Source: a virus
Length of the DNA: 29,875 bases
Strand: one strand, 5' to 3'
Virus record (IMG/VR): IMGVR_UViG_3300032134_000012
Coordinates: 1-29,875 of that record
Shown: piece by piece, positions 21,231 to 25,274 of the stretch
Numbering within the stretch: position 1 is the stretch's first letter
Layout: every line of letters starts with the position of its first letter
Notes under the pieces: generated by a model
Told to the model about the DNA's origin: nothing
Seen by the model: the letters and a program-made list of their open reading frames with translations, nothing else
The model's database searches: none
Translations under genes and position numbers: made by a program

Positions 21231-22162
21231 TTTGCTACGCTTCTCATATTAGTTTGGGCATAATTGGAGTTTTTCTTATGCCGGATATATGGTGTTTTAC
21301 ATCCCTGGCATCTATACACCGGGAATTGATTAGCCGAAGTAAAATATGTGGCTTCTGTTTCGTCCAGGTGTTCGCATCCGCAATTCGGGCAAACATCCAT
21401 CTCCATCAATACACCCAGATTCGGATGATTCTTGATATAAGGCCGGAGTTTTAAATATACTTGCTCCAATCCCATTACATCGTGGCGGTTATATTCAGCC
21501 ATTTCATCGAGTCTTTTTTGATCCCCGGCCATACAATCAACCCACAACTTAAATTCTGTCGATAATTTCTGTGGAAGTTTGAAGTGTTTGGTGAGGAAGT
21601 CTTGCTTATATGAAACAAAGGCAAATTCCCTTCTTGCCACCTTCAGCGTATCAACGGTCCTAAACGGTGACGGCGGGTTCATTTCGTTATCAATAAATCG
21701 AGCGTTCAATTTCCTTATATCGAATCTATCACCATTATGACCGATAACAATATCCGCTTCATCAAGCAGCTTCCAGATGGACTTTAAAATACGGCTATCA
21801 TCTCTTGCTATTGATTCGTCTGGAGTAACAATATCGGATAAGATCGTGTCATCATATAGCCACTTCGCCGCCCAGGATAAACAGAACCACGACTTTTCTT
21901 CACCATTTTCGTCTTTAATTATATTCGTGTGGGGGATGAATTGCTTATAAAGTCCCCAGACATATACTTCCATCAATGCAGTTTCAATATCAAACAGGAG
22001 GATTTTAGGTAAATCGGTTTGTGGCGAATCCATCGGAACCGAAAACCTCCGCCCGCAACTATTACACTTGTATCTTTGTAGGTTTCGTTCTAACGAATTT
22101 GAAAATCTAACGCCATGTTTAATTGAGAATGTAGAGTTACACTTCGGACAAATCGCTTTCAT
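21227..22162 (-). CDS. RNase H-like 3'-5' exonuclease with two zinc ribbons
   Basis: 311 residues. An N-terminal zinc ribbon (CPKC at 5 to 8, CNSC at 33 to 36) is followed by a DnaQ/RNase_H_2-like exonuclease core: motif I LLFDIET (D58, E60), motif II VIGHNGDRFDIRKLN (D145/D148), motif III YNRHD (224 to 228) of the DEDDy type. A second zinc ribbon (CPNCGC at 258, CQGC at 285) closes the protein. There is no polymerase domain. It may process DNA ends, or proofread or degrade host DNA. It overlaps the nuclease gene by 26 bases, part of the cassette containing the TET/JBP gene. Confidence 0.82.
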   Translation of the reverse strand: MKAICPKCNSTFSIKHGVRFSNSLERNLQRYKCNSCGRRFSVPMDSPQTDLPKILLFDIETALMEVYVWGLYKQFIPHTNIIKDENGEEKSWFCLSWAAKWLYDDTILSDIVTPDESIARDDSRILKSIWKLLDEADIVIGHNGDRFDIRKLNARFIDNEMNPPSPFRTVDTLKVARREFAFVSYKQDFLTKHFKLPQKLSTEFKLWVDCMAGDQKRLDEMAEYNRHDVMGLEQVYLKLRPYIKNHPNLGVLMEMDVCPNCGCEHLDETEATYFTSANQFPVYRCQGCKTPYIRHKKNSNYAQTNMRSVAK

Positions 22163-22634
22163 TGTTTTCTCTCTGGTATGTGGTTAATTCTGATTGATCC
22201 AAGACATAACCCGGTCCGCGTCCCAAATCTTTAATATTTTCGTCTTTGAACAATTCCGATCCTTTCGCCATTCCTATAAATCTAAAATGAGGTATCTTTC
22301 CTGTTAACAAAGCATAAAGATCGGCTTGTCTCATTTTTTTTGAACGGACTGCCAACAGACGACCGTTTCTGTATTTTGTTGTTTTTACATCCACTGTTCC
22401 TTCGGGTATATCCGCATCGTATTCATCAATTTCTCCAACCATAAGATTAGGATATACGTTCATTGCTTTACAAAATGCAATTTCACCGGCAGCACCATTT
22501 AAATCGGTTTCATAATCGCTTTGACTGCCAACGCGAAGATTTGGTCTACCTTTTTTCCTTGCGAGTTCATGGCGTTTTTTTCCAACACATTTCGCAAGTC
22601 TAATTTCTATTTCGTTTAAAGTAATTTCAATCAT
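22137..22634 (-). CDS. PD-(D/E)XK-like nuclease
   Basis: 165 residues. NGAAGEIAFCKAMNV (E51 on the first helix), then DADIPEGTVDVKTTKYRNGR, with an acidic residue near 73 to 75 and DVK (D82, K84), fits the restriction-endonuclease-like core. The family is seen in phages as Holliday junction resolvase-like or recombination nuclease. It overlaps the FkbM-type gene by 8 bases. It could cut host DNA that lacks the phage modification, but that is a guess. Confidence 0.65.
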   Translation of the reverse strand: MIEITLNEIEIRLAKCVGKKRHELARKKGRPNLRVGSQSDYETDLNGAAGEIAFCKAMNVYPNLMVGEIDEYDADIPEGTVDVKTTKYRNGRLLAVRSKKMRQADLYALLTGKIPHFRFIGMAKGSELFKDENIKDLGRGPGYVLDQSELTTYQRENNESDLSEV

Positions 22635-23322
22635 GTTTTTTACAAAAAATTATCTGATCTATAAATCCGCCCCACAGACCTTTTTCGCCTTTATGTTTTT
22701 GGTTATGAAAACTGTTTTGTATCTTTATTTCAAAATGCTTTTTTAATATTTCAATACAATGAAAAAAATCATCCATTTTTCTATTTTTTGTGAATGAATA
22801 TTCAAATACCAGTTTTTTTATATTTCTAAAATCATGTTCGTTTTCAAGTATTTCTAATTCAGAACCTTCAATATCCAATTTAATAGCGTTTATATCGCTA
22901 TAAATTTGTAAAATATTATCGAACGCAACGCAATCAATTGATTGTTTTTTTAATTCTTTTTTATAATGCGTGTTTATCGCATGTCGCCAGGTGTTCGGTG
23001 CGATGTGTAATAACGCTTTTCCATCGCTTTGGGTTATTGCTCTTTTATCGTTGATTATTTCGACATCATATTTTTTCTTTAAATAATTTGTATTTTTTTC
23101 CAGGAGTTCAAAGTTTGATTTTTCTGGTTCAAAGCAATAAATTTTTTTTGATCCTTTTTTTGCTGCATATTCTGCAAAAATTCCTATCTGTGCGCCGCCG
23201 TCTAACCATACGTCTCCTGGTTCGGCATCAAAATTAATATTCTTTTTCTTGTAGGCCTTCCTGTTCAAAATCTCATCGATTACTTTTTCATCCGTTGTGT
23301 TTTCTCTGTACATAAATGGCAT
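22627..23322 (-). CDS. FkbM-family SAM-dependent methyltransferase
   Basis: 231 residues. Motif I VWLDGGAQIGIFAEYAA (38 to 54), the acidic strand IYCFEPEKSNFELLEKN (61 to 77, Glu for SAM ribose) and IKLDIEGSELEIL (147 to 159) are the FkbM family signature. Characterised FkbM enzymes O-methylate hydroxyl groups. The start lies in a TAATG overlap with the TET/JBP-like gene, so the two are made together. I infer that it may methylate the hydroxyl made by the dioxygenase, on DNA; a glycan substrate is the main alternative. Confidence 0.85.
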   Translation of the reverse strand: MPFMYRENTTDEKVIDEILNRKAYKKKNINFDAEPGDVWLDGGAQIGIFAEYAAKKGSKKIYCFEPEKSNFELLEKNTNYLKKKYDVEIINDKRAITQSDGKALLHIAPNTWRHAINTHYKKELKKQSIDCVAFDNILQIYSDINAIKLDIEGSELEILENEHDFRNIKKLVFEYSFTKNRKMDDFFHCIEILKKHFEIKIQNSFHNQKHKGEKGLWGGFIDQIIFCKKHD

Positions 23323-24227
23323 TATATTATCCCCGCATATTTTTTTGCTATTAATCTTTGATTCCTTTGTATCCTTTTTAATTCTTCAGAAGGACTTAAA
23401 CATTTATACATATTTTTCCTATAATACATAACAAAAGACAACCTTATCCCATCATGAGTTGTTTTTTTTATCTCGCTATTTCCATGATGTTGATGGACAT
23501 CCATTAACAACAAATCATTTTTTGCCAAATTAACGGCAATTCTAAATCTCGGTAAAATTAAATAGACTGGTTCCACGTTTTCTAAATATACAACTAAATT
23601 CCCGAAACCTTCTTCAAAGTCACCGGCATCGGTATGTACGGCTGCTCTATAATTTTTATTAATTGTTATAGTTGTAAAAGCCGTTCCTTCTATAATATAA
23701 TTTGGATGTGTTGCCTTTGCCATCTCAAGTTGTTTTTCATGGCGTTCTGGGACGATATTCTTGAAGGAATTATCCACCGCTTTAAATAATGGCATTGCTT
23801 TTTTAAATTTATTCAAATGTTTTTTTGTAAAGGCCGTTGTTCTGCAAAAATCTAAACGTGCATTTCTATCGAAATAGCCCGCAATTCCACTGTTTATTGA
23901 CAACGGTTGATCTGTTCCCGGCAAGTAAGTAATTGTGGACCTGGATTTTTTTCCAGATGATAACAATGCGTTTTTTCTTTCACCGCCGGAAGCCGGACCG
24001 CGATTCGAAGTTGGTCCCGCCGCGCCAATCATATTTATATAAGCAGTTTTTAAGATTTCTGGTTCTATGTGATTTTTCCTGAAAAACAACAACGGTTGGC
24101 CTGTTGAAGTATAACAATCACAATCAAAATCAATTAGCGTATCAAAGTCGTTTTCGCCAAGAAATGACCCTTCTAATTTTTTTGTTTCTTGTTCGGTTAA
24201 ATGATATTCAGCGATTATTTTTTTCAT
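23322..24227 (-). CDS. TET/JBP-family 2OG-Fe(II) dioxygenase
   Basis: 301 residues. The core motif AAVHTDAGDFEEGFGNLVVY (195 to 214) gives the iron ligands H198 and D200; LLLMDVHQHHGNSEI (239 to 253) supplies the distal His (H245 or H248); IRLSFVMYYRKNM (261 to 273) supplies R262 for 2-oxoglutarate. The upstream TSNRGPASGG (73 to 82) and GIAGYFDRNARLDFCRTTAF (114 to 133) are features of the phage/fungal TET/JBP group rather than AlkB. Such enzymes oxidise the methyl of 5-methylcytosine or thymine in DNA. It is followed by the FkbM gene with a TAATG overlap. An AGGAGAAATAC Shine-Dalgarno precedes the ATG. No C5-methyltransferase was found, so the base is open. Confidence 0.86.
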   Translation of the reverse strand: MKKIIAEYHLTEQETKKLEGSFLGENDFDTLIDFDCDCYTSTGQPLLFFRKNHIEPEILKTAYINMIGAAGPTSNRGPASGGERKNALLSSGKKSRSTITYLPGTDQPLSINSGIAGYFDRNARLDFCRTTAFTKKHLNKFKKAMPLFKAVDNSFKNIVPERHEKQLEMAKATHPNYIIEGTAFTTITINKNYRAAVHTDAGDFEEGFGNLVVYLENVEPVYLILPRFRIAVNLAKNDLLLMDVHQHHGNSEIKKTTHDGIRLSFVMYYRKNMYKCLSPSEELKRIQRNQRLIAKKYAGII

Positions 24228-24429
24228 TGTATTTCTCCTTAATCAAATCGAATAAAAAATCTTGATGGAATTCATAATTGGAAATATCACATAATCTTTC
24301 TAACATTCTTATAAATTCAATTTTTTTATCATCAGCGAAGGCAAGTTGTATATATTCAATTTCAGTCGTTTCCAACACACCATCATTTTCCTTTGGCTTT
24401 ATATCAAACAGTGTCTCCTGTCTAATCAT
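24208..24429 (-). CDS. Small acidic protein between PP-loop and TET/JBP genes
   Basis: 73 residues, helical and acidic (EYIQLAFADDKKIEFIRMLE, then FLFDLIKEKYNEKN). It overlaps the TET/JBP gene by 20 bases. No family recognised; its position suggests an accessory or binding role in the same cassette. Confidence 0.6.
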   Translation of the reverse strand: MIRQETLFDIKPKENDGVLETTEIEYIQLAFADDKKIEFIRMLERLCDISNYEFHQDFLFDLIKEKYNEKNNR

Positions 24430-24437
24430 TTTTTATT

Positions 24438-25274
24438 TCATTCCCCATCGTAACAATCACAAATTAATTCAATACCAGATTCATCAAATAAAGATTCTTG
24501 TTGTTCGTCAGCGTTTATTAAGTCTTTCCAAGCATAATTTCTTCCAAGCCCTTTAATCGATGTCAATTCGGCATTTTCTTCCATCTTTATTGCCCTCTCC
24601 GCTAATTCTGGGAATACTTTTGCAAGTTGCTTTACTTCATTTTTTTTCATTGCCGGACAGAAAAAACAAGCTGATTTTTTTGGTTGTGGCAATCCGTGTT
24701 CTCTAATTTTTTCCACGCACTTATCTCTATCCCACCCCCAATAAACCAAAGGATATTCTGTGTGGCGTTGTTTTGTTTCAAAAAATTTCATTCGGTGAAA
24801 CTCCCCCGCATCAAAACCGACATATTCAGCAATCCTTTGTCCATTTTTAAGTTCGGCTTCAAACCTTTTTTTCTTATATTTCCATTGGGGTCGAAGTTTA
24901 AAATGATCCGAACAACTTTTATATCCATACGCTAACGAAGGAAGATATTTATTTCTAATACAGTTTTCTTCGAGAGTCTCTTTTGGATGTTTTACAAAAA
25001 TAATTTCTGGCATTTCATGTTCAATCAGCCACTTGTTGAATATATCAATAAAAACATAAGTGTCCGGTCTTTCTCCTCCGGTATCGGAGAAAAGAATCAA
25101 ATCCACTTTCAATTCTTTTTCATATAATCCAATAAGCATCGCGGTTGAATTGGTCCCTCCACCGTATGATATGGCTATTGGATCGTTAGACCATTCGGCC
25201 AAATTGATACCTTCTTTTTTTGGTAATTCGTCTGCTTTTTCATCAAGCCATTTCTTTGAATCAAAATTCGTCAT
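24438..25274 (-). CDS. PAPS-reductase-like PP-loop (adenine nucleotide alpha hydrolase) protein
   Basis: 278 residues. The PP-loop AISYGGGTNSTAMLIGLY (34 to 51) and LILFSDTGGERPDTY (59 to 73) are typical of the PAPS reductase/ATP sulfurylase superfamily. Cysteines at 105, 121 (KSCSDHFKLRPQW), 203 and 206 (ACFFCPAMKKNE), and 272 and 274 suggest an iron-sulfur cluster or zinc site as in sulfur-transferring members such as DndC-type proteins. Phage copies are common but not characterised. It could activate a substrate with ATP or transfer sulfur; whether it acts on DNA is unknown. It sits 8 bases from the upstream NinG-like gene. Confidence 0.82.
   Translation of the reverse strand: MTNFDSKKWLDEKADELPKKEGINLAEWSNDPIAISYGGGTNSTAMLIGLYEKELKVDLILFSDTGGERPDTYVFIDIFNKWLIEHEMPEIIFVKHPKETLEENCIRNKYLPSLAYGYKSCSDHFKLRPQWKYKKKRFEAELKNGQRIAEYVGFDAGEFHRMKFFETKQRHTEYPLVYWGWDRDKCVEKIREHGLPQPKKSACFFCPAMKKNEVKQLAKVFPELAERAIKMEENAELTSIKGLGRNYAWKDLINADEQQESLFDESGIELICDCYDGE

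Follow-up and report, generated by a model that had tools for sequence, protein, structure and literature searches.

A TET/JBP-type dioxygenase paired with an FkbM-family methyltransferase: a candidate DNA base hypermodification cassette of marine phages

Genes and features of the locus

We have analyzed an IMG/VR virus record of 29,875 bases, which may be a fragment and which, in its whole length, we call the window. Nearly all of its genes are carried by the minus strand; early genes occupy the right end, and those for the terminase, head and tail lie on the left. On this strand, a predicted TET/JBP-type 2-oxoglutarate/Fe(II) DNA base dioxygenase of 301 amino acids (23322..24227) is followed by an FkbM-family SAM-dependent methyltransferase of 231 amino acids (22627..23322), which is the predicted capping enzyme. 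In Pfam, the former matched Tet_JBP (PF12851; E 1.7e-22, 79.8 bits, cut-off 34.9) and the latter matched FkbM (PF05050; E 1.2e-13, 52 bits, cut-off 22.7), and both family assignments of an earlier note on this DNA were thereby borne out. The stop of the TET gene overlaps the start of the FkbM gene as TAATG (23320..23324, minus strand), just as that note had read it. Reading of the sequence also gave an AAGGAG ribosome-binding site for the TET gene (24235..24240, minus strand) and a GGGGA shortly before the FkbM start codon.

A third gene encodes a small accessory protein of 73 amino acids (24208..24429, minus strand) and shares 20 nt with the beginning of the TET gene. In most relatives a ParB-domain gene lies directly before TET or FkbM, whereas the window has the 73-aa gene instead, and genes of this type hold the same position in L001 and L011-L015. 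When clusters c43 and c17 were compared with ParB C-termini, hhalign gave a probability of 95% (E 1.9e-8), against 0.1% for the ParB N-terminal control, and c43 and c17 matched each other with a probability of 94%. Judged from these profile comparisons, the 73-aa protein is homologous to the C-terminal domain of the ParB proteins found before TET in related phages, and here this domain stands alone.

The cassette region has a GC content of 32-35% and is AT-richer than the terminase side of the window, which fits an acquired cassette. When the window is compared with L001, its closest relative, the identity is 89% for the TET protein and 83% for the FkbM protein. Considering that the TET dN/dS between the two is 0.07 and that the FkbM dN is 0.09 (with dS saturated), both genes appear to be maintained. 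Directly upstream of the cassette lies a gene for a PP-loop/PAPS-reductase-like protein (24438-25274, minus strand), which scored just below the cut-off for PF01507 and matched phrog_424 with E 5.6e-38. It was dropped as a cassette member, being absent from L001 and from the neighborhoods of all other relatives. On the other side, the gene of a DUF5843 protein (22137-22634, minus strand) overlaps the FkbM stop by 8 nt. Its VDVKTTK stretch resembles, by eye, a PD-(D/E)XK nuclease motif, and a relative of it was seen in one case near a kinase-type TET locus (L027).

Active sites and predicted folds of the two enzymes

The earlier note had credited the TET protein with the full set of family residues. 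In an alignment of 54 TETs, no substitution occurs at H198, D200 or H248 and hardly any at R262; H245, which the note had also counted, is W or Q in divergent FkbM-linked TETs and is therefore not family-defining. By this alignment, H198, D200, H248 and R262 form the iron/2-oxoglutarate site, with H248 as the distal ligand. The AlphaFold2 model of the protein (pLDDT 95.4, with 51 relatives in the alignment) found its best solved match in TET2 bound to DNA (4nm6; Z 21.4, 3.2 A over 255 residues), followed by NgTet1 bound to DNA (Z 19.4) and then by CMD1 and CcTet. The AlkB group scored well below (ALKBH3 Z 14.4, others lower). In the model, the fold is thus nearest to the TET-type DNA oxygenases, and the structure prediction that the earlier note had proposed as a check places the two DNA-bound enzymes at the top. 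A PDB sequence search with the TET profile returned chance matches only. Compared with TET2, NgTet1 and JBP1/2, the window TET has the same fold, the same HxD...H...R active site and the Tet_JBP domain, but its sequence is only 15% identical to that of TET2.

By motif spacing, we take D203 and R270 of the window TET to correspond to N1387 and H1904, the base-reading residues of TET2. The TETs of loci in which FkbM comes first have N at the D203 position and L at the R270 position, whereas the others have D and R. For example, in L007 (5663-6448) and other such loci, TET is encoded after FkbM and carries N and L. These residues raise the possibility that the FkbM-first TETs may differ from the others in base specificity, and the D203/R270 pair would fit either base, thymine or cytosine.

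The FkbM model (pLDDT 91.5) shows a SAM-methyltransferase fold. Its first match is a solved FkbM protein (2py6, Z 12.4), tied with RsmD and other Rossmann methyltransferases; the structure prediction proposed in the earlier note for this protein thus upheld the methyltransferase fold, and the family itself was ranked first only in a tie. Among 23 FkbM relatives, D41, G43, G47, E65, K148, D150, E152 and G153 are invariant. The protein shares the domain, the SAM motifs and the fold of the FkbM O-methyltransferases (PF05050; 2py6), but its predicted substrate is a base in DNA and it belongs to a separate phage subfamily, which groups apart from the sampled bacterial FkbMs in the FkbM tree. The family members known to us act on small molecules or glycans.

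Conservation of the pair and the exchangeable slot after TET

A search of IMG/VR with the single TET protein found one relative, and an alignment-based search was needed; the alignment-based scans yielded 80 TET loci and 80 FkbM loci. The earlier note had named conserved adjacency in metaviromes beforehand as a test of its proposal, and among the 80 best FkbM relatives, 75 were found to have a same-strand TET gene as immediate neighbor. The order varies, with TET before FkbM or FkbM before TET, and most pairs overlap, the overlaps being upper bounds considering that each ORF was begun at its first start codon. Of the five FkbM loci without such a neighbor, two are truncated by a contig end. 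Control FkbM loci, nearly all from bacterial genomes, showed no TET (0/81). The pairing is far beyond chance, and these linkage counts argue strongly against accidental adjacency. Altogether the pair is kept in more than 80 related marine-phage sequences. In the cultured Pelagibacter phage HTVC112P it is gp18-gp19, and in the cultured Prochlorococcus phage MED4-184 a ParB-domain protein, FkbM and TET are encoded consecutively; P-HS2 and MED4-117 gave the same FkbM match as the other named phages in the FkbM search alone. On the other hand, TET is missing from the whole records of the FkbM-bearing L133, L155 and L169 and from that of L008, which has a distant phage FkbM, and this counts against a role of FkbM in base modification. 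In L133 (4177-5636) a ParB-cluster gene is followed by FkbM, in a 94-kb record that lacks any TET.

The position after TET is occupied by different tailoring enzymes among the relatives of this TET, each in one conserved neighborhood with it. FkbM fills it in 82 loci, a P-loop kinase (PF18751) with AADT (PF18724) or aGPT-Pplase3 (PF18746) in 46, and TAGT-type glycosyltransferases (PF20691) in 23, where the assignments come from sequence clustering with Pfam run on representatives only. None of the 82 FkbM loci has kinase, AADT, aGPT-Pplase or TAGT enzymes nearby. Also, TAGT (PF20691) and AADT are absent from 20 whole FkbM records, while the control records matched. These sister loci with known tailoring enzymes support the view that FkbM holds the tailoring position in a cassette for DNA-base hypermodification. 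The exchangeable slot, like the ParB-related gene upstream and the cultured carriers of the pair, had not been pointed out in the earlier note.

In the TET tree, the window and L001 are nested inside the kinase-linked TETs (100/90), and the FkbM label changes 3 times on this tree, a number as low as which was reached in 0 of 500 shuffles. In the tree of FkbM proteins, those of the window and L001 group with that of L098 (99), a locus whose TET is only 24% identical to that of the window. The histories of TET and FkbM therefore disagree, a pattern that fits FkbM being a tailoring module that can be exchanged. We consider this mismatch the best single reason to think that the TET product is what FkbM acts on, and we think it very probable that the two enzymes act in one base-modification pathway.

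Some of the sister loci carry further genes. Kinase-type loci sometimes add a glutamine amidotransferase and a GNAT protein. In L017 (5873-8271), TET is followed by a glutamine amidotransferase, GNAT, AADT and a kinase-cluster gene whose relatives match the P-loop kinase, apparently a multi-step thymine-tailoring cluster that is found in many contigs. In L009 (5792-7824), the TET of phage C48C1 is followed by two uncharacterized genes, the second of which resembles UDP-galactopyranose mutase by eye, and a galactofuranose-type DNA modification is possible. In L082 (5879-6658), TET is followed by a fusion of cytidylyltransferase and mannose-6-phosphate isomerase and then by TAGT, which suggests that this phage may make its own nucleotide sugar for DNA glycosylation.

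Proposed pathway, alternatives and meaning

We propose that the cassette consists of three genes and would act on DNA rather than on nucleotides. The ParB C-terminal-like adaptor would assist or target the oxygenase. The TET/JBP enzyme, for which the fold and the catalytic residues have been described above, would then hydroxylate a pyrimidine of the phage DNA at its 5-methyl group, and conversion of thymine to 5-hydroxymethyluracil would be likelier than that of 5-methylcytosine to 5-hydroxymethylcytosine. Subsequently, FkbM would methylate the hydroxyl so formed, with SAM as the donor; the product would be a 5-methoxymethyl pyrimidine, probably 5-methoxymethyl-2'-deoxyuridine. Such a small ether cap would shield the site against host restriction as well as against enzymes acting on free 5-hydroxymethyl groups. 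With the base left open, a 5-methoxymethyl pyrimidine is the product toward which we lean. The earlier note had read the pair as oxidation followed by such a cap, and its reading is supported in part.

The base itself had been left open in the earlier note. C5-cytosine methyltransferase (PF00145) was found neither in the window record (possibly a fragment) nor in the complete genomes of HTVC112P and MED4-184; it exceeded the cut-off in 2 of 38 records, both FkbM-first. Thymidylate synthase was found only in Cr30 among the records searched. No kinase or pyrophosphorylase family was found among the window proteins, and AADT is absent from the window record. The characterized kinase acts on 5hmdU in DNA, in the thymidine pathway (PMC7653180; PMC6449724), and in phage Tonitrus a set of ParB, TET-like, aGPT-Pplase2 and 5hmU kinase genes has been annotated as thymidine hypermodification (PMC11955845). 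Because 36 of the 38 records have no C5-methyltransferase above the cut-off and the sister loci carry thymidine-pathway enzymes, the evidence favors thymine, and we regard thymine as probably the modified base. The same cassette might instead work on cytosine, with TET oxidizing a 5-methylcytosine made by the host or by an unseen enzyme and FkbM giving 5-methoxymethylcytosine. The top structural matches of the TET model are 5mC oxygenases, two FkbM-first records do hold a C5-methyltransferase, and phage TETs acting on 5mC were reportedly described in Burke 2021. This is unlikely, although it deserves more weight than the alternatives below, considering that no C5-methyltransferase exceeded the cut-off in the window, the two cultured phages or the great majority of the records, and that a 5hmU-type kinase and AADT occur in the sister loci.

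Other chemistries can be considered for the second step. TET enzymes can oxidize iteratively, and if the window TET went on to a 5-carboxyl base, FkbM would form a methyl ester, or it might methylate another group made downstream; the FkbM model, a general SAM-methyltransferase fold without a substrate cue, would suit this. Yet the kinase and glycosyltransferase of the slot need a hydroxymethyl group rather than a carboxyl, and no further tailoring enzyme was found among the window proteins, so that we find such a route improbable. We give equally little credence to FkbM methylating a sugar that a glycosyltransferase has placed on the oxidized base. Sugar-methylating FkbM enzymes exist, TAGT fills the slot in other phages, and HTVC112P encodes a GT9-like protein beside its tail fibre gene; sugar methylation is therefore possible in that phage, which counts against the methyl ether. 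But the search of the FkbM records, which covered some glycosyltransferase families, gave no TAGT or GT2 match, no glycosyltransferase family was found among the window proteins, and TAGT and FkbM share no locus. Lastly, FkbM might act on a virion or host glycan and be a neighbor of TET by accident, as some phage FkbM genes lie near tail-fibre and mannosyltransferase genes, e.g., in DSL-LC02. An adjacency that is kept in nearly all loci in both orders, re-pairs across TET lineages and is lacking in bacteria makes this very improbable.

TET-based hypermodification is already known. Iyer 2013 is said to be the principal bioinformatic study of TET systems in phages, and thymidine hypermodification systems of the ParB-TET-aGPT-Pplase/AADT-5hmU kinase type were reportedly treated in Iyer 2013 and in Lee 2018 and 2021. 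Compared with these systems, as in phage Tonitrus (PMC11955845), the window cassette has a TET of the same clade, the same operon position before the terminase and a tailoring enzyme after TET; in place of their ParB-type upstream gene it has a homologue of the C-terminal domain alone, and its tailoring would rely on one FkbM rather than on a kinase plus a transferase or pyrophosphorylase. Among the phages with TET and TAGT (PF20691), Nonlabens phage P12024L has a TET that is 40% identical to that of the window and likewise a single tailoring gene directly after it, but the cap predicted for the window is a methyl group and not a sugar. The CmoX/CmoY carboxymethylcytosine pathway (PMC12783734) is also a phage DNA hypermodification that is often linked to a ParB-domain gene, but it uses a C5-methyltransferase homologue and Cx-SAM in place of TET and FkbM. 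We found no literature report that connects FkbM with TET, 5hmU/5hmC, DNA modification, 2OG or methoxymethyl in phage DNA. Accordingly, no FkbM capping step turned up in the searchable literature, Iyer 2013 and Burke 2021 aside; an earlier prediction in either of these or in Lee 2021 is possible.

In summary, we tentatively propose that TET followed by FkbM, working on the DNA polymer, gives rise to 5-methoxymethyl-2'-deoxyuridine as a naturally occurring base, one that would be common among marine phages, those infecting SAR11 and Prochlorococcus among them. If this is true, it would be, to our knowledge, the first known base-methyl ether in natural DNA and the first FkbM acting on DNA, that is, a new natural base and a nucleic-acid role for the FkbM family. 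The pair is carried by phages of two of the most abundant marine bacterial groups, and at least two of its carriers are complete genomes of cultured phages, so the predicted base can be sought in cultures. The TET-FkbM pair could then also be used as a tool to put a small, stable cap onto 5-hydroxymethyl bases, and the exchangeable slot after TET offers a general route to further tailoring chemistries.
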